Positions 9,357 through 34,281 of a stretch of 34,730 nt of DNA are shown here, piece by piece. Location of the stretch: the IMG/VR virus record IMGVR_UViG_3300029268_000069, positions 1 to 34,730 of that record. One strand, 5' to 3'. The notes beneath the pieces were generated by a model, which was not told the origin of the DNA, did no database searches, and saw nothing but the letters and a program-made list of their open reading frames with translations. The position numbers were made by a program, and so were the translations under genes. Every line of letters starts with the position of its first letter. Position 1 is the first letter of the stretch. This stretch comes from a virus.

Positions 9357-9833
9357 TTGGAAGAAAGTAATTTACCAATCAAGAAAAAAGTAGGAAGACC
9401 CAAAGGGTTGAAGAACATAACAACAGATTTTAAAATTAAGAATAAGAAATTATTCATAGATACATTAAAGCAAAGTTATGGTATTCTTACACCAGCATTA
9501 GAAATTGCTGGAATAACAAGGCAAACTTTTAATAAATACTACAATACAGATCCAGAGTTTGCTTTAGAAATTGATAATATCAGAGAGAGTGCAATTGATT
9601 TTGTAGAAAGTCAATTGTATGAACAGATTAAAGCAAAAAATCCAACATCAACTATATTTTATTTGAAATGTAGGGCAAGGTCAAGAGGTTATATTGATAA
9701 TGTTGATGTTAAAGTAGATAGTACAAGTGAGATACGTATAAAATATATTTTACCAACATTACCAGAAGAACCAAAGGATCAGATAGAAGTTAATAATCCT
9801 ATTACAATTAAAATTAATGATAATAACTTATGA
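9357..9833 (+). CDS. terS: Terminase small subunit
   Basis: This 158-residue protein should recognise phage DNA and recruit the large subunit for packaging. The N-terminus is basic and AT-hook-like (KKKVGRPKGLKN). A homeodomain-like helix-turn-helix follows (about 38-62; SYGILTPALEIAGITRQTFNKYY), then the helix DPEFALEIDNIRESAIDFVE and the phrase STIFYLKCRARSRGYID, as in phBC6A51-type small subunits. There is no ATG in the frame, so TTG 9357 is the likely start. It overlaps the HNH gene by 4 nt. Confidence 0.75.
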   Translation: MEESNLPIKKKVGRPKGLKNITTDFKIKNKKLFIDTLKQSYGILTPALEIAGITRQTFNKYYNTDPEFALEIDNIRESAIDFVESQLYEQIKAKNPTSTIFYLKCRARSRGYIDNVDVKVDSTSEIRIKYILPTLPEEPKDQIEVNNPITIKINDNNL

Positions 9834-10573
9834 CCAAGGAAGAAAAGAAAGAAAAAAAGAAAGAGTATAATAGAAAATGGAGAGAAGCACATCCAGATTA
9901 TTTTATAAAAAAACATAAGGAATATCATAGTACAGACAAATGTAAAGACTATATAAAAAAATACAGATGTAGACCTGAAGTTAAAGAAAGAGAGCGTGAA
10001 TTAAAGAAAGAGTATTGGAAAAAAGTAAAAGATGTAGAGAATGAAAAAAGAAGGGTAATAAATACTACACCTGAAGTACTTGAACGTAGAAGACAACTTT
10101 ATAAAGAACGAAAAGAAAAAAACTTTGAAAAAATATCAGAACAAAAAAAACAATGGCACGAGAAGAATAAAGAAAAAAGAAATATAGAAAGAAAATATAA
10201 ATATCAAAATGATAGATTATATAGAATAGAACAAGTTGTAAAATCTACCATAAAATTAACATATAGACAAATAGGTGAGAAAAGGAAAAAAGGTATTGAA
10301 ACTATATTAGGTTGTTCTTATGAGCATTTTTTAGAATATATTGAAAGCCAATTTGAACCTTGGATGAATTGGGATAATTATGGAAAATATAAAAAGAACA
10401 CATTTAATTACGGCTGGGATATTGACCATATAATACCAAGGAGCACAATAAAAAATGAAGAAGATGTTTTTCTTCTTAATCACTATACTAATTTACGTCC
10501 ATTATGTAGTTATTATAATAGACATATAAAAAAAGATAAAATAACTTCAAAAAATAACAACAAGCCCCTATAA
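9830..10573 (+). CDS. HNH endonuclease between the terminase genes
   Basis: This 247-residue protein has a highly charged Lys/Glu/Arg-rich helical N-terminal 150 residues and a C-terminal HNH core, WDIDHIIPRS (about 199-208), LLNHYTNLRPLC (about 217-228) and YYNRHIKKDK. The ATG overlaps the terS stop (ATGA), and the stop region touches the ATG of terL at 10573. HNH enzymes beside terminases can be homing endonucleases or helpers of packaging cleavage. Here the insertion splits terS from terL and the adjacent terL P-loop is disrupted. Confidence 0.78.
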   Translation: MTKEEKKEKKKEYNRKWREAHPDYFIKKHKEYHSTDKCKDYIKKYRCRPEVKERERELKKEYWKKVKDVENEKRRVINTTPEVLERRRQLYKERKEKNFEKISEQKKQWHEKNKEKRNIERKYKYQNDRLYRIEQVVKSTIKLTYRQIGEKRKKGIETILGCSYEHFLEYIESQFEPWMNWDNYGKYKKNTFNYGWDIDHIIPRSTIKNEEDVFLLNHYTNLRPLCSYYNRHIKKDKITSKNNNKPL

Positions 10574-10671
10574 TGGCTGAAGTAATTTTTGCACCAACTA
10601 TTTTGCAAAATAAAGCGTGGAACATTCTTAAAGATAGAACCACCAACTTCATCCTTTATGGGGGCTCGTAA
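10573..10671 (+). pseudogene. terL: Terminase large subunit, N-terminal piece (frame-broken)
   Basis: ATG 10573 opens a frame coding MAEVIFAPTILQNKAWNILK and on to FILYGGS, which contains the adenine-binding Q motif (LQNKAW) and the first half of the P-loop. It stops at TAA 10669-10671. The rest of the protein continues in the next frame. Removing the ten bases 10669-10678 joins YGGS to GSGKS and gives a normal Walker A, GGSGSGKS. Alternatives are a one-base slip in the G run 10660-10664 or a programmed +1 shift at TCG-TAA. Confidence 0.6.
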
Positions 10672-11881
10672 GTTGGCAGGTTCTGGAAAATCCTATCTTG
10701 GATGCTATTGGGTATTTATATCCTGTTTGCAATACCCCGGAATTAGATGTCTTATAGGTAGAGCAAGATTAAATAACTTAAAAAGGACCACATTAAAAAC
10801 TTTACTTGATATATTCAAGTTAAATAATTACACAGATTTTCATATTAATAATACAACATCAACTATAACATTTCCAAACGGAAGTGAGATTATATTGATG
10901 GACTTATATCCATATCCACAAGATATAGATTTTGACCGTCTTGGTTCATTAGAAATAACACTTGGATTTATTGACGAACTTTCTGAAGTTAGTTGGAAAG
11001 GATTTCAAGTTTTAAGTTCCAGAATAAGATATAAACTTAATGAGTATAAGTTAATTCCAAAACTTTTTTGTGCATCCAATCCAACTAATAACTGGGCTAA
11101 AAATTATTTTTATACACCATTCATTGAAGGTAGAGAAAAAGAAAATGTGAGATTTGTTCAAGCATTATCAAGTGACAATCCATTTTTACCAAGTACATAT
11201 TTAGAAACTATGAAAAATACGTTAGATTTTTCATTGAGACAAAGACTACTCTTTGGTGACTGGTCCTTTGAGTCAGATGACTATAATTTATTCGACTACG
11301 ATAAATTACAACAATGTTTCTACAATGAGAGTTTAATAACAACTGGTAAGTATTATATTTCTGCAGATATAGCAGATTTAGGAAATGATAAGACGGTAAT
11401 TTGTGTATGGGATGATTGGAGAGTTGTTAAGATAGTTAAACTTGAACAAAAGGAAACTACACAAGTAGTTGAAAAAATTAATCAATTAAGAGTTGAATAT
11501 AAAATACCAATAGGTCATATAGTAATTGATAGCGTAGGTGTTGGGAGTGGTGTAGCATCTTTATTAAAAGGTGTAGTAAGATATATGGGTAGTAACAAGT
11601 CAATTAATGGTGGCTATAGAAACATTAAAACAGAATGCTTTTATAAATTTGCAGAAAGAGTTAATAACTTAGAAGTTAGTTTTAGTTTTCCATATAGTGA
11701 TGAACTTATACAAGAATGTATTTTATATAAGAAAGAGTTTAGTGGTTTAATTGCTGGTGTAACTTCAAAAGATAAAATTAAACAGAGTTTAGGAAGAAGT
11801 CCCGACTTGGCTGATGCACTTTATTTAAGAGCCTATTTTGATTTAAAGATTGGTGGTACAATTAAAATAAGAGTAATATAA
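10658..11881 (+). CDS. terL: Terminase large subunit (ATPase and nuclease)
   Basis: This packaging motor subunit has 407 residues if started at the internal ATG 10658; an open frame reaches back to TTG 10589. It shows a P-loop end GSGKS at about residues 8-12, Walker B LGFIDE, and the coupling motif CASNPTNNW. The RuvC-like nuclease has three acidic motifs: ISADIADLGNDKT, IDSVGVGSGV and PDLADAL. All enzymatic motifs after the P-loop are intact. The Q motif and first P-loop glycines lie in another frame (10573-10671), so the natural protein needs a frameshift, or the gene or its sequence has an indel. Confidence 0.85.
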   Translation: MGARKLAGSGKSYLGCYWVFISCLQYPGIRCLIGRARLNNLKRTTLKTLLDIFKLNNYTDFHINNTTSTITFPNGSEIILMDLYPYPQDIDFDRLGSLEITLGFIDELSEVSWKGFQVLSSRIRYKLNEYKLIPKLFCASNPTNNWAKNYFYTPFIEGREKENVRFVQALSSDNPFLPSTYLETMKNTLDFSLRQRLLFGDWSFESDDYNLFDYDKLQQCFYNESLITTGKYYISADIADLGNDKTVICVWDDWRVVKIVKLEQKETTQVVEKINQLRVEYKIPIGHIVIDSVGVGSGVASLLKGVVRYMGSNKSINGGYRNIKTECFYKFAERVNNLEVSFSFPYSDELIQECILYKKEFSGLIAGVTSKDKIKQSLGRSPDLADALYLRAYFDLKIGGTIKIRVI

Positions 11882-11976
11882 TGAAAGTAAAATTATTAAC
11901 AGGAGATTGTTTAGAACAAATGAAAAAAATACCAGATAACTATGTAGATAGTATCGTCACGGATCCTGTAAAATAA
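11881..11976 (+). pseudogene. DNA methyltransferase N-terminal remnant
   Basis: ATG 11881 overlaps the terL stop (TAATG). The 31 residues MKVKLLTGDCLEQMKKIPDN through DSIVTDP are the classic start of a beta-type N6/N4 DNA methyltransferase, where TDPPY should follow. Here the frame reads TDPVK and stops, so the catalytic motif is cut inside. The matching C-terminus lies at 12546-12680, after an HNH gene. Too short to be an enzyme. Confidence 0.75.
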
Positions 11977-12032
11977 TTTGAAATAGTATAGTTTTAGACC
12001 CCACTAATTTTATATATAGAAGAAAAATCAAT

Positions 12033-12614
12033 ATGAGAAAAAAAGGTGAAAATAATTGTAAATGTGAAGTATGTGGTAAAGAGTTCCACAGAAAGCAAAG
12101 TTTAATAAGGGAACATATTTATTGTTCTATGATTTGTAGAAATAAAGTATTTAAGAAATATAATTTTGATACAAATGAAATTACTAATGAAGTAGATTGC
12201 TTATTACTTAACTATGAAATTAAAAAAGAGGGAGTTGTTATAAACAAGAGAACTGGTAAAGAGGTTAAGTTTTGTAAAAATAACAAAGGTTACGAAGTAT
12301 CAAGATTACACACACCATTAGCAACTAATAAAGATGGTAGGAAAGCATATAAATTGCATAGGTTAATTTGTATGATACATTTAGAAGATTACAATTGTAA
12401 ATTACAGGTTAATCATAAAGATGGTAATAAATCAAATAATAATATAACTAATTTAGAGATGGTTACTGCAAAACAAAATGTAAGACATTACTTTGATGTT
12501 CTTGGTGGTAATAATGATCATATTATTAGAGATAGTAAAGGTAGATTTTTGGGTTCAGGTTCAACAGGTGTTGCAGCAGTTAAGAACAATTTTAATTTTA
12601 TAGGTATAGAATAA
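12033..12614 (+). CDS. HNH endonuclease with a methyltransferase tail
   Basis: This 193-residue protein has an N-terminal Cys cluster (CKCEVCGKEF, then YCSMICRN) resembling a zinc finger. An HNH core follows: YKLHRLICMIHLED, then LQVNHKDGNKSNNNITNLEM (about 130-149), with the usual VNHKDGNKxNNxxxNLE signature of NUMOD4-linked homing endonucleases. After DSKGRF the sequence changes to FLGSGSTGVAAV and NFIGIE, which is motif I of a DNA methyltransferase. The last 22 residues are thus host-gene sequence fused in frame, ending at a TAA inside the old methyltransferase. Confidence 0.82.
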   Translation: MRKKGENNCKCEVCGKEFHRKQSLIREHIYCSMICRNKVFKKYNFDTNEITNEVDCLLLNYEIKKEGVVINKRTGKEVKFCKNNKGYEVSRLHTPLATNKDGRKAYKLHRLICMIHLEDYNCKLQVNHKDGNKSNNNITNLEMVTAKQNVRHYFDVLGGNNDHIIRDSKGRFLGSGSTGVAAVKNNFNFIGIE

Positions 12615-12680
12615 AGTTCAGTATATATGGAAATAGCAAAAGCAAGAATTAATTATGCCAATGAAAAAACAGATTTGTAA
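12546..12680 (+). pseudogene. DNA methyltransferase C-terminal remnant
   Basis: In one frame the DNA codes FLGSGSTGVAAV, NFIGIE, a TAA stop (12612-12614), then SSVYMEIAKARINYANEK and a final TAA at 12678. This is the AdoMet-binding motif I (DPFxGSGSTG) and C-terminal helix of a beta-type methyltransferase. The roughly 150 middle residues, including PPY and target recognition parts, are missing and their place is taken by the HNH gene. Confidence 0.75.
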
Positions 12681-12996
12681 AATTTGCAATATAGAAAAGG
12701 ATGTTTTATGTTATAGAAGGCAGCAATCTGGTTCGTTTCGTAAGATATGTAAAAGATGTGAATATGATAAGTATGAATATAAACATAGAAAACCAAAGAA
12801 AGAAGTACCAGAGGAAATACTTAAACGCAGGGAATATGATAAATTAAAAAAGCGTGAAAAAGCATTAAAGGAAAAAAATAAATGGTTGAACGATCTATAC
12901 CAATATATAGTTTATAAAAATATATTCACAGAGCGAGAGCTGGAAATTATATATAAGTGGTTAGAAGTTGTAAATAAATTAGGAGATATAAAATGA
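12655..12996 (+). CDS. Zinc-finger protein, possibly an HNH relic
   Basis: This is a 113-residue protein (start at ATG 12655 or 12661). The N-terminus CKICNIEKDVLCYRRQQSG then RKICKRCEYDKY has the CxxC...CxxC arrangement of the zinc finger found at the N-terminus of many phage HNH endonucleases. The rest is a Lys/Glu-rich helix and a C-terminal helix (FTERELEIIYKWLEVVNKLG), with no HNH core. It overlaps the end of the methyltransferase remnant. It may be a shortened homing enzyme or a small DNA-binding protein. Confidence 0.55.
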   Translation: MPMKKQICKICNIEKDVLCYRRQQSGSFRKICKRCEYDKYEYKHRKPKKEVPEEILKRREYDKLKKREKALKEKNKWLNDLYQYIVYKNIFTERELEIIYKWLEVVNKLGDIK

Positions 12997-14337: not shown

Positions 14338-17300
14338 ATGTACGAAAACACTTTTTATAAAATAGTAGATAAGATTATAAATCGTTTAACTATAAACGGG
14401 TTCAAGCAAATAACATACGGTACAGAAAGTGATATAGATTTAAAAAAAAGGCAATCTAATTATCCATTAGCGCATATTGTATTACCTAATGGTTCAAATG
14501 ATATAAAGGTTACTAATTTAAGTTTTATAATAATAGTTGCTGATAAATTGGATCAAACTGGTAATGTATATCCACAATACGGTAATAATAATTTAATAGA
14601 TATTCAACAGGATTTATTAACAAGAACTCAAACAACTTTAAAATCATTAGATAAACGTTTTTTATCAAGTTATGATAGTATTGAAATTGGTTATGATATA
14701 GTTTATAATACAAATTTTACAGCCTTTCAAGAAAATTATCCTGAATTATTAGCAGGGTTTGTATTTAATATAGAAATTCAAATGCCTAACATGATAGATG
14801 ATCTATCATGTGAGGATTATTCAATATCTGGCGTACCTACAAGACCGCAAGGTTTTGGAACATCTGGTACTAATGGAACAAGTGGTACGAATGGTACAAG
14901 CGGAACAAGTGGAACATCTGGTAGTTCAGGTAGTTCAGGATCAACTGGTTCATCTGGTAGTTCAGGATCATCAGGAAATGATGGTACATCAGGAACAAAC
15001 GGATCATCAGGAACATCAGGTAGTTCAGGTAGTTCAGGTGAAGATGGAACATCAGGTAGTTCCGGTGAAGATGGTTCATCTGGTAGTTCAGGATCATCAG
15101 GTAGTGCAGGTTCATCTGGTAGTTCAGGATCATCAGGTATTAATGGTACAAGCGGTTCATCAGGAACATCAGCAACTAATGGAACATCAGGTAGTTCAGG
15201 TACTTCTGGTAGTTCAGGTTCATCAGGTAGCGCAGGTTCATCAGGTATAAACGGAACCAGTGGTTCATCAGGTAGCGCAGGTTCATCTGGTAGTTCAGGT
15301 TCATCAGGTACAAATGGAACATCAGGTAGTTCAGGTACATCAGCAACAAATGGAACATCAGGTAGTTCAGGTACATCAGCAACAAATGGAACAAGTGGTA
15401 CATCAGGTAGTTCAGGTTCATCTGGTAGTTCAGGTTCATCAGGTACAAACGGAACAAGTGGATCATCAGGTAGCGCAGGTTCGTCAGGTACAAATGGTAC
15501 AAGCGGATCATCAGGTATAAATGGAACAAGCGGTTCATCAGGTAAAAATGGAACTAATGGTACAAATGGAACAAATGGAACATCAGGTAGTTCAGGAACA
15601 TCAGCAACAAATGGTACAAGCGGATCAAGTGGAATAAATGGAACATCAGGTAGTTCAGGTATTAATGGAACATCAGGTAGTTCAGGAACATCAGCAACAA
15701 ATGGCACAAGCGGATCAAGTGGAACAAATGGTACATCAGGTTCATCAGGTATAAATGGTACATCAGGATCAAGTGGAACATCTGCAACAAATGGAACAAG
15801 TGGAACGAGCGGATCATCTGGAAAAGATGGTACATTTGTAGGTTCATCAGGAACATCAGGTAGTTCAGGTAGTTCAGGTGTTAATGGAACATCAGGTAGT
15901 TCAGGTGTTAATGGAACATCAGGTAGTTCAGGTGTAAATGGTACATCAGGTAGTTCAGGTTCAGCAGGTACAAATGGTACATCAGGTAGTTCAGGTTCAG
16001 CAGGTACAAATGGTACATCAGGTAGTTCAGGTAAAAATGGAACTAATGGAACTAATGGAACTAATGGAACATCAGGTAGTTCAGGTGTTAATGGAACATC
16101 AGGTAGTTCAGGAACATCAGGAACTAATGGTACATCAGGTAGTTCAGGTAGTTCAGGTAATTCTGGAACAAATGGAACATCAGGCAGTTCAGGATCAAGT
16201 GGTACAAGTGGTACAAGTGGATTAGATGGTGCGGTGCAAGGATTAATTTTATGGTATGATAATATTTCATCTGATCAAACTAAACCTGAAATAATAGGAA
16301 ATACAACTATTGCATTTGTTAATAGTAATCCAGACACTATAACTCGTGCTGCAGGTAGTTTTGTAACTGATGGATTTACAGCAGGACAAAAAATAAAAGT
16401 ATCAGGATCTTCTCAATCTGGAAATAATGCAACTTGGGTAGTAACAGCAGTAACTGACTCTACATTAACATTAGCAACAATAAATGCATTAACAGCATCT
16501 GCATCTGGAAGTAGTATAACAATTATACAAGATTATGAAAAACTAACAAGAGTGCCTTCTGCTGGAACAGAAGTTGATGAATCACAATCTGTAGTATTGG
16601 CTGATGGTGGAGTTGCGTTAGATAATTACATGACAGTTGATATGGTTCCAGGAGCATTAAGTATACCAGTAGGAATATGGAAGTTTCATGGATTTTATTA
16701 TCGTACTGGTGGAGGGTCAGGAATTGTTACATTCAAATATGAAGTATTAAAATTCAATCCTTTAACAGGAATACTTACATCTTTATTCACAACAGTTGCA
16801 ACTGATGAAATAACAGCGGATACATTAGCAACTGCGCAAGAAGTGATAACTTCTCATACTATTAGTTCAGATATTGCGTTATTAACAACTGATAGATTAG
16901 TTGTTAGAGTTTTAACATATAATACAAGTACAACTGCTAGGATAGCACATTTTGTTTATCAAGGATCATCAAGAGCTTCCCATATTAATACAACTTTTGC
17001 TGTAACTGGTATAAATGGAACAAGTGGTTCATCAGGAACATCAGGAACAAGTGGTATAAATGGAACTAATGGTACAAGCGGAACATCTGGAAGTTCAGGA
17101 ACATCTGGCTCATCAGGAACAAACGGAACAAGTGGTTCGTCAGGTACAAGTGGTAGTTCTGGTTCCTCAGGAACAAATGGTACATCTGGTAGTTCAGGTA
17201 TTAATGGTACATCTGGTAGTTCAGGCTCATCAGGAACAAACGGAACAAGTGGTTCATCAGGTAAAAATGGTACAAACGGTACTAATGGAACATCAGGTAG

Positions 17301-18933
17301 TTCAGGAACAAGTGGTAGTTCAGGTTCATCAGGTACAAACGGAACGAGTGGTTCGTCAGGTGTAAATGGAACAAGCGGTAGTTCAGGAACATCTGGTACT
17401 AACGGAACATCAGGATCAAGCGGTGTTAATGGAACATCAGGTAGTTCAGGTATTAATGGAACATCAGGTAGTTCAGGAACATCTGGCACTAACGGAACAT
17501 CAGGATCAAGCGGTGTTAATGGTACATCAGGTAGTTCAGGATCATCAGCAACTAATGGTACAAGTGGTAGTTCAGGAACATCTGGAACAAATGGTACATC
17601 AGGTAGTTCAGGTAAAAATGGCACAAACGGTACAAACGGTACAAACGGAACAAGCGGTTCATCAGGAACATCAGGAACATCAGGTACAAATGGAACAAGT
17701 GGTTCAAGTGGTGTGAACGGAACATCTGGTAGTTCAGGTGTTAATGGAACATTAGGTAGCTCAGGTACAAGCGGTAGTTCTGGTTCATCAGGAACTAATG
17801 GAACATCAGGTAGCTCAGGTTCATCAGGTACAAACGGTACAAGTGGTTCATCAGGTAAAAATGGAACAAACGGCACAAACGGCACAAACGGAACATCTGG
17901 TAGTTCAGGCTCATCAGGAACAAACGGAACAAGTGGTTCATCAGGAAGTTCAGGTATTAATGGAACATCAGGAAGTTCTGGTTCATCAGCAACTAATGGA
18001 ACATCAGGATCAAGCGGTAGTTCAGGAAGTTCTGGTTCATCAGCAACTAATGGTACAAGTGGTTCATCAGGTAAAAATGGTACAAACGGTACAAATGGAA
18101 CAAGTGGTTCATCAGGCGTAAATGGAACTAATGGAACATCAGGTAGTTCAGGTTCGTCAGGTATAAATGGAACAAGTGGTAGTTCAGGAACATCAGGAAG
18201 CTCAGGAACATCAGGTTCAAGTGGAACAAACGGAACAAGTGGTTCATCAGGAACATCAGGTTCAAGTGGTATAAACGGAACAAATGGTACATCAGGTTCA
18301 TCAGGTGTAAATGGAACATCAGGTAGTTCAGGAACATCTGGTAATAATGGTACAAGTGGTTCATCAGGAATTAATGGTACTAATGGAACATCAGGATCAA
18401 GTGGTGTTAATGGTACATCAGGCAGTTCAGGATCATCAGGAATTAATGGTACAAACGGAACTAATGGTACAAGTGGTTCATCAGGTGTAAATGGAACTAA
18501 TGGAACATCAGGTAGTTCAGGATCATCAGGTGTAAATGGTACATCTGGTAGTTCAGGTTTAGGAACAAATGGTACATCAGGTAGTTCAGGAAGTTCAGGA
18601 TTTTATAGTACTGTTGTTGAAGCTCAGGATGCTGGTCACACTTTAACAACCGCTGATGCATTTACCACATTTACCTGTAATTCAACTGGTAATCAAACAT
18701 TTAATTTACCAAGTGTAGGTGCTGGTGAAATTGGATATGAATTTACATTTGTAAAATTAGGAACTGGACAATTAATTATTCATCCAGCAGATAGTGATAC
18801 AATTGAAGATAGTGGTGCAGGATCAAATACATATTGTGCTGATGAAGGATTAGCAACAGTAACATTAAAATTGATATCAACAACTCAATATGTTATGAAA
18901 TATGCATTAGGAGTTTGGATTACAACAACTTAA
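14338..18933 (+). CDS. Giant collagen-like tail fibre protein
   Basis: This 1531-residue protein has five parts. Residues 1-170 are a folded domain (YPLAHIVLPNGS, then LAGFVFNIEIQMPN) resembling a tail-terminator-like family of Bacteroidetes phages. Residues 174-633 are Gly-X-Y triplets (GSS, GTS, GTN, GIN, GVN, GKN). Residues 634-890 are a beta-rich domain (FTAGQKIKVSGSSQSG, YMTVDMVPGALSIPVGIWKF), probably a receptor- or sugar-binding jelly roll. Residues 891-1421 are a second triplet block. Residues 1422-1531 are a beta C-terminal tip (ending GVWITTT). The triplets contain no Pro and are Ser/Thr/Asn rich, so the stalk would be a non-prolyl collagen-like triple helix. It is first gene after the promoter-like box. 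Confidence 0.75.
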   Translation: MYENTFYKIVDKIINRLTINGFKQITYGTESDIDLKKRQSNYPLAHIVLPNGSNDIKVTNLSFIIIVADKLDQTGNVYPQYGNNNLIDIQQDLLTRTQTTLKSLDKRFLSSYDSIEIGYDIVYNTNFTAFQENYPELLAGFVFNIEIQMPNMIDDLSCEDYSISGVPTRPQGFGTSGTNGTSGTNGTSGTSGTSGSSGSSGSTGSSGSSGSSGNDGTSGTNGSSGTSGSSGSSGEDGTSGSSGEDGSSGSSGSSGSAGSSGSSGSSGINGTSGSSGTSATNGTSGSSGTSGSSGSSGSAGSSGINGTSGSSGSAGSSGSSGSSGTNGTSGSSGTSATNGTSGSSGTSATNGTSGTSGSSGSSGSSGSSGTNGTSGSSGSAGSSGTNGTSGSSGINGTSGSSGKNGTNGTNGTNGTSGSSGTSATNGTSGSSGINGTSGSSGINGTSGSSGTSATNGTSGSSGTNGTSGSSGINGTSGSSGTSATNGTSGTSGSSGKDGTFVGSSGTSGSSGSSGVNGTSGSSGVNGTSGSSGVNGTSGSSGSAGTNGTSGSSGSAGTNGTSGSSGKNGTNGTNGTNGTSGSSGVNGTSGSSGTSGTNGTSGSSGSSGNSGTNGTSGSSGSSGTSGTSGLDGAVQGLILWYDNISSDQTKPEIIGNTTIAFVNSNPDTITRAAGSFVTDGFTAGQKIKVSGSSQSGNNATWVVTAVTDSTLTLATINALTASASGSSITIIQDYEKLTRVPSAGTEVDESQSVVLADGGVALDNYMTVDMVPGALSIPVGIWKFHGFYYRTGGGSGIVTFKYEVLKFNPLTGILTSLFTTVATDEITADTLATAQEVITSHTISSDIALLTTDRLVVRVLTYNTSTTARIAHFVYQGSSRASHINTTFAVTGINGTSGSSGTSGTSGINGTNGTSGTSGSSGTSGSSGTNGTSGSSGTSGSSGSSGTNGTSGSSGINGTSGSSGSSGTNGTSGSSGKNGTNGTNGTSGSSGTSGSSGSSGTNGTSGSSGVNGTSGSSGTSGTNGTSGSSGVNGTSGSSGINGTSGSSGTSGTNGTSGSSGVNGTSGSSGSSATNGTSGSSGTSGTNGTSGSSGKNGTNGTNGTNGTSGSSGTSGTSGTNGTSGSSGVNGTSGSSGVNGTLGSSGTSGSSGSSGTNGTSGSSGSSGTNGTSGSSGKNGTNGTNGTNGTSGSSGSSGTNGTSGSSGSSGINGTSGSSGSSATNGTSGSSGSSGSSGSSATNGTSGSSGKNGTNGTNGTSGSSGVNGTNGTSGSSGSSGINGTSGSSGTSGSSGTSGSSGTNGTSGSSGTSGSSGINGTNGTSGSSGVNGTSGSSGTSGNNGTSGSSGINGTNGTSGSSGVNGTSGSSGSSGINGTNGTNGTSGSSGVNGTNGTSGSSGSSGVNGTSGSSGLGTNGTSGSSGSSGFYSTVVEAQDAGHTLTTADAFTTFTCNSTGNQTFNLPSVGAGEIGYEFTFVKLGTGQLIIHPADSDTIEDSGAGSNTYCADEGLATVTLKLISTTQYVMKYALGVWITTT
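14857..16221 (+). repeat. Collagen-like coding repeat block 1
   Basis: Degenerate 9-base units coding Gly-X-Y, dominated by GGTAGTTCAGG and GGTACATCAGG words, run from residue 174 to about 628 of the fibre. Interruptions are rare (for example GTFV near 15830). Because codons differ mainly at third bases, many long near-identical words are shared with 17008-18600, 28370-28614 and 3436-3533. Confidence 0.9.
17008..18600 (+). repeat. Collagen-like coding repeat block 2
   Basis: The second Gly-X-Y block of the fibre gene covers residues 891-1421, with the same words as block 1. A larger repeated module of the type GKN-GTN-GTN-GTN followed by GTS-GSS recurs in both blocks, suggesting expansion by unequal recombination. 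One interruption (GLGTNG) lies near the end. Confidence 0.9.
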
Positions 18934-33342: not shown

Positions 33343-34281
33343 ATGGAACAAAATCTTTTAACAACCGTTTCTATTACAAGTACCTATGCAGGTGAATTTG
33401 CTGGTAAGTATATACAGGCAGCTTTTTTAGCAGGTGCAACTCTTGGAAATGGTACTATTACAATTAAACCTAATATTAAATATAAGGAAGTTGTAAAAAA
33501 ATTAGCAACAAGCGCAACTATTTTAGCTGACGCAACTTGTGACTTCACCGCAACCGCAACTGTTACTTTAACTGAACGTATCTTAGAACCTAAGGAACTG
33601 CAAGTTAACTTACAATTGTGTAAAAAAGATTTTCATAGTGATTGGGATGCAATTCAAATGGGTTATTCAGCATTTGATGTTCTTCCTAAAACATTTACTG
33701 ATTTCTTAATTGGTAATTTATCAGCAACCGTTGGTGCTTCAATTGAAACTGCTGTATGGCAAGGTGTTGGTGGAGCTGGTTCATTTACTGGTTTAACCAC
33801 TTTATTCAAAGGTGATGCAACCGTAGTTGATGTATCTGGTACTACTATTACCGCTGCTAACGTTCAGGCTGAACTTGCAAAAGTTGTTGCCGCTGGTGCT
33901 GCTTTAAATACAACTACCGCAGTTATTTATGCTTCTAAATCCGTTATATCAAATTACTTAATTTCATTAGGTGGGTTTGGTTCATCTGGTTTAGGTGCTA
34001 ATGGTTATAAAGGCGAAGGTCCTGCTGGTTCAGGAAATGCTCCTTTATATTTTGCAGGAGTTCAAATTGTAGAAGCTCCAGGTATGGCTTCAAGTGAAAT
34101 GGTAATGGCTGAACCTTCTAACTTATGGTTTGGTACTGGTTTAATGAACGATTATAATAAAGTTCAAGTATTAGATATGGCTGACCTTGATGGTAGTGAA
34201 AATGTTAGATTTGTAATGAGATTTACTGCTGGCGTTCAATACGGCATTGGTGCTGAAATTGTATATTACTGGATTTACTAA
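33343..34281 (+). CDS. Major capsid protein
   Basis: This 312-residue protein contains ERILEPKELQVNLQLCKKDF (about 86-105), a phrase typical of capsid proteins of Bacteroidetes phages with an HK97-like fold, and an Ala/Gly/Thr-rich body. It starts 9 nt after the scaffold gene. A strong terminator follows, then the tail tube gene. GC content rises slightly relative to neighbours, as usual for highly expressed capsid genes. Confidence 0.82.
   Translation: MEQNLLTTVSITSTYAGEFAGKYIQAAFLAGATLGNGTITIKPNIKYKEVVKKLATSATILADATCDFTATATVTLTERILEPKELQVNLQLCKKDFHSDWDAIQMGYSAFDVLPKTFTDFLIGNLSATVGASIETAVWQGVGGAGSFTGLTTLFKGDATVVDVSGTTITAANVQAELAKVVAAGAALNTTTAVIYASKSVISNYLISLGGFGSSGLGANGYKGEGPAGSGNAPLYFAGVQIVEAPGMASSEMVMAEPSNLWFGTGLMNDYNKVQVLDMADLDGSENVRFVMRFTAGVQYGIGAEIVYYWIY

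Follow-up and report, generated by a model that had tools for sequence, protein, structure and literature searches.

The locus lies in an uncultivated phage record from a metagenome assembly (IMGVR_UViG_3300029268_000069), of which we analyzed a stretch of 34,730 bases, here called the window. Its terminase is nearest to those of Bacteroidota phages, the closest named one being that of Flavobacterium phage 11b (41%). Between the terminase gene terL and a small downstream ORF with CxxC motifs, the window holds both ends of a DNA methyltransferase gene, with an HNH endonuclease ORF between them. The features are as follows:

10573 to 11881, plus strand: terL, the upstream neighbor; its own stop is overlapped by the methyltransferase ATG
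11881 to 11976, plus strand: 5' remnant of the methyltransferase gene; 11881-11967 codes for 29 residues ending in TDP and is followed by VK and a stop
11968 to 12032, plus strand: A+T-rich segment of 65 nt from the point where the methyltransferase breaks off to the HNH start codon; no Rfam match
12033 to 12614, plus strand: HNH ORF of the I-HmuI family (193 aa), whose residues 172-193 come from the methyltransferase
12057 to 12137, plus strand: CxxC..CxxxC zinc-finger-like N-terminal segment of the HNH ORF, below the Pfam cutoff
12210 to 12491, plus strand: I-HmuI-like catalytic core (residues 60-153), complete by 1u3e alignment and predicted fold
12546 to 12680, plus strand: 3' remnant of the methyltransferase gene, running from motif I (FLGSGSTG) to where the gene naturally ends and containing an in-frame TAA (12612-12614)
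12655 to 12996, plus strand: small CxxC (zinc-ribbon-like) ORF, the downstream neighbor; its start overlaps the methyltransferase end

Both outer pieces are recognizable as parts of an N6/N4 DNA methyltransferase. The 5' piece (11881-11967) reads MKVKLLTGDCLEQMKKIPDNYVDSIVTDP, the first 29 residues of the enzyme, in a frame that ends at a stop at 11976, and it matches positions 122-150 of the PHROG family phrog_67 (DNA methyltransferase) with an E value of 3.7e-10. The 3' piece (12546-12680) reads FLGSGSTGVAAVKNNFNFIGIE, the internal TAA, SSVYMEIAKARINYANEKTDL and a final stop, corresponding to the last 44 residues of the methyltransferase from FLGSGSTG onward; the 22 residues ahead of the TAA match phrog_67 positions 309-330 (E value of 1.7e-6). 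A home-made hidden Markov model of intact phage methyltransferases scored the N- and C-terminal pieces at 34 and 40 bits, respectively, while the top score in 100 shuffles of the region was 7 bits. When used as a two-piece query, they retrieved intact phage enzymes carrying both pieces in the same order, and in the window they stand in that order, at the correct ends of the gene, bordering terL and the next ORF. A degenerate DNA pattern for the N-terminal piece had 0 matches in viral_contigs, a result that carries no weight. The sequence-only reading of this DNA had proposed that an HNH gene replaces the middle of a methyltransferase, whose last part runs from motif I to its end with one in-frame stop; the two phrog_67 matches, with an HNH_3 ORF between them, bear this out.

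The break falls within the catalytic TDPPY motif: in all six intact enzymes compared, the match to the N-terminal piece ends exactly before PY. In place of motif IV, (D/N/S)PP(Y/F), the window reads TDPVK followed by a stop, while the SAM-binding motif I (FxGxG) is present as FLGSGSTG at 12546, in a frame separate from that of the N-terminal piece and with a stop after it. The region between motifs IV and I is absent from the whole window, since tblastn with both short and long enzymes found the two ends only; a relocation of the middle within the window was rejected on the same result. With motif IV cut and the middle absent, the methyltransferase is, as far as its sequence tells, dead. Compared with intact phage N6/N4 methyltransferases (PF01555; phrog_67; Vibrio phage 1.168.O, Pseudomonas phage Medea1, and L068), the window shares both gene ends but has motif IV cut after TDP and everything from there to motif I gone. 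In five of the six intact enzymes, the two pieces are separated by 148 to 363 residues, and in the sixth by 542. Short enzymes (~215 to 260 aa, as in Vibrio phage 1.168.O, Lactococcus AM9, and Klebsiella Carvaje) would put the loss at 148 to 187 residues and long GSGFPKS-type enzymes (~430 aa, as in L068 and Medea1) at 340 to 363, the long class fitting the pieces slightly better (best sum of 95.9 versus 89.0 bits among unevenly sampled viral loci). Since both classes fit the ends, we give the missing stretch as a range, estimated at about 150 to 360 residues. The loss of about 150 residues proposed earlier thus holds as a loss, but its figure is one of several and near the lower bound.

The ORF between the two pieces matches Pfam HNH_3 (E value of 1.6e-10). 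Its closest solved relative is I-HmuI from Bacillus phage SPO1 (PDB accession no. 1u3e), on whose residues 12-100 residues 60-153 of the ORF align (E value of 3.8e-9); a profile match reached 8e-38 and the Foldseek comparison 1.7e-8. These matches classify the nuclease as homing type and I-HmuI-like, in agreement with the sequence-only reading. The core holds the family-conserved residues H109, R110, N127, H128, N140, N149, and H152, and AlphaFold block-mean pLDDT is 86 to 97 for residues 61-160, falling to 42 to 63 for residues 161-193; in sequence and predicted fold, the core appears intact. The further claim that the endonuclease is complete, however, did not hold. After the core, 19 residues precede the methyltransferase sequence, whereas 79 relatives from viral contigs have a median of 70 residues there, 77 of them having at least 30 and only two having fewer. 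I-HmuI has 74 more residues after the core, where the window protein carries a methyltransferase fragment instead, and the C-terminal DNA-binding region that belongs to I-HmuI-like nucleases is missing. The HNH gene is therefore not complete, having lost its own C-terminal region.

As had been proposed, the HNH frame continues in frame into the methyltransferase C-terminal piece, with the junction somewhere between H152 and F172 and residues 172-193 providing the match to phrog_67. The sequence-only reading would have been refuted by HNH homologs with the same FLGSGSTG tail and no methyltransferase nearby; GSGSTG occurred in none of the 79 viral-contig relatives, and the tail was rejected as a native HNH feature. 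The N-terminal zinc-finger-like segment, which the window protein has in addition to what I-HmuI has, was likewise found in none of these 79 relatives. The 65-nt A+T-rich segment ahead of the start codon is possibly the HNH gene's own leader.

By terL, the only close relative found was L021 (terL 67% identical), which has in common with the window the order terS, HNH gene, terL, small CxxC ORF, sigma-like gene, and further genes. The small CxxC ORF directly after terL in L021 is similar by eye, with no tblastn match to its counterpart in the window. L021 holds no methyltransferase between terL and the CxxC ORF and no such HNH gene downstream of terL, so that the methyltransferase was an accessory gene, either gained in the window phage or lost in L021. 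The intact methyltransferase that the sequence-only reading sought next to terL in related phages was thus not found in this relative. A pattern for the HNH-methyltransferase junction, which does match the window, had 0 matches in genome_contigs, single-sequence peptides of the HNH ORF had none there either, and database searches including viral contigs and genome_contigs found no conserved sibling of the fusion. Both components were seen in comparable settings: L068 has a methyltransferase gene immediately upstream of terL, and Vibrio 1.168.O and Pseudoalteromonas HS1 each have one close to terL or portal; a same-family HNH gene lies ~150 bases upstream of the intact long-class methyltransferase in Pseudomonas phage Medea1 (L011:222-743); and in L275, L297, L302, and L320, a same-family HNH ORF starts within ~500 bases after the methyltransferase match. 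The near-portal methyltransferase of Pseudoalteromonas phage HS1 (L013:2498-3141) is annotated as two ORFs and is apparently broken without nuclease insertion. In the open-access literature searched, we found no described case of a phage methyltransferase whose middle part had given way to an HNH gene.

Taken together, we read the locus as a degraded double remnant, in which a homing gene invaded an accessory methyltransferase and a deletion then truncated both genes, and we put the probability of this reading at roughly three in four. The starting point would have been an accessory N6/N4 DNA methyltransferase gene between terL and the small zinc-ribbon-like gene. A free-standing I-HmuI-family HNH homing endonuclease gene would have entered it at the catalytic TDPPY codons, and a later deletion would have brought methyltransferase motif I into the HNH frame just past the catalytic core, taking away the nuclease's C-terminal region and at least 150 methyltransferase residues. 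Alternatively, insertion and deletion may have happened in one illegitimate repair event; that insertion came before deletion is our inference, since we found no sister genome that has, at this place next to terL, an intact methyltransferase or a full-length HNH gene. Both genes lose parts at one shared junction, and a search of both junctions revealed neither target-site duplication nor direct repeats. Of the earlier proposal of an invasion that left a chimeric endonuclease, the homing-type invasion stands, while the product is better described as two genes truncated at one junction. Because its own C-terminal DNA-binding region is gone, the HNH protein has probably lost specific homing; with the HNH frame open and fused in frame, a functional protein is possible. 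Most likely, a mobile gene of a known kind wrecked this locus, and no new working machine resulted.

Free-standing HNH homing genes that divide a phage enzyme gene in two at a site critical to its function are known from mobE in nrdA of Aeh1 and mobA in gene 60 of T4 (PMC2988022). In those cases, the host gene keeps all of its parts and works as two polypeptides (PMC2988022), whereas in the window at least 150 residues and the 3' end of the nuclease gene are gone and the host gene is accessory. Decay of an HNH homing gene by deletion is likewise seen in I-TevIII from the nrdB intron of T4, which was inactivated by a large deletion but lies inside a group I intron, with the host gene intact after splicing and no fusion to host sequence (PMC2988022). 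More generally, homing genes are described as clustering around terminase genes and as decaying, in many cases, through frameshifts and in-frame deletions (PMC10448857). It has been argued that insertion in an essential gene shields the element from imprecise deletion (PMC2988022). Such a shield would be absent here because a methyltransferase of this kind is dispensable, as in L021, and the outcome fits: as an accessory gene, the methyltransferase was free to be lost, which left the nuclease unprotected from deletion, in line with the idea that homing genes persist best in essential genes. On this reading, the locus is a frozen late stage in the life of a homing endonuclease in a phage genome. 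It is a degraded case of a familiar type that leaves known mechanisms unchanged, and it illustrates how a gene annotated as "HNH endonuclease" can conceal a fused-on piece of the gene it invaded.

Given the open 193-codon frame and the intact catalytic core, it is tempting to speculate that the fusion works, with the 22 borrowed residues as a new C terminus, the zinc-finger-like N-terminal segment binding DNA, and the nuclease still cutting for homing. We consider this unlikely, as the C-terminal region of I-HmuI and of nearly all relatives is missing, the tail is predicted at low confidence, and the fusion has no conserved sibling among the sequences searched. A bolder version, in which homing followed by deletion created a new endonuclease architecture, with the victim's 3' end as C terminus and DNA binding moved to the zinc-finger-like N terminus, strikes us as very unlikely. 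The ORF also comes right after terL, and HNH nucleases encoded next to terminase genes contribute to cos cleavage in phage HK97 (discussed in PMC10448857), so that it might be read as a packaging nuclease acting with the terminase instead of a homing nuclease. This is highly improbable for an ORF whose family is that of the I-HmuI-like homing nucleases, which sits inside a wrecked methyltransferase and whose like is absent downstream of terL in L021.

An assembly or sequencing artifact, by which the contig would join different genomes or the damage would be error, deserves mention for an uncultivated metagenome record, the more so since a nearby 7-nt interruption of terL could be real decay or errors. 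It is nevertheless quite unlikely: the pieces form the two ends of a single gene, correctly spaced from either neighbor, an artifact would require two false junctions in that gene, and G+C content is similar in the HNH gene (0.255) and the methyltransferase pieces (0.28 to 0.29). The remaining alternative is that the locus is what is left of a group I intron (or intein) that carried the endonuclease. Introns typically insert at conserved catalytic motifs, I-HmuI is itself intron-encoded, and if there was an intron, its 3' part may have been lost by deletion. However, no catalytic RNA core was detected (no Rfam match even at E values up to 1), intact flanking exons are lacking because exon sequence is missing, and merely 65 nt lie ahead of the HNH start; an intein is disfavored by the HNH gene having its own ATG, out of frame with the N-terminal piece. 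Intron and intein were rejected on these grounds and are scarcely credible, which agrees with the earlier view that the methyltransferase, its middle absent from the window, is not interrupted by a spliceable intron.

Several further observations concern the surroundings of the locus. The terL interruption consists of seven extra bases, TAAGTTG (10669-10675), that begin with an in-frame stop within the Walker A motif and sit exactly between the residues matching L021 terL residues 31 and 32, so that terL is either broken, wrongly assembled, or translated by ribosomes that hop over the insert. Gene 60 of T4 offers a precedent, as an interrupted gene that still works via ribosome bypass and that also adjoins a homing gene. 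Another HNH gene (9830-10573; weak PF01844 match) lies between terS and terL, ending just upstream of the latter, and the same gap in L021 holds a different, HNH/AP2-like gene (L021:5336-5908), so that the terS-terL gap appears to be a hot spot where unrelated nuclease genes settle. Further downstream, an ORF of 1531 residues (14338-18933) consists largely of collagen-like GTSGSSG repeats, its N-terminal part matching a short L021 gene. Finally, the contig carries the portal gene (614-1987) at its beginning and a capsid-like gene (33343-34281) at its end, with terL in between, which reflects either an unusual gene order or a circularly permuted contig.
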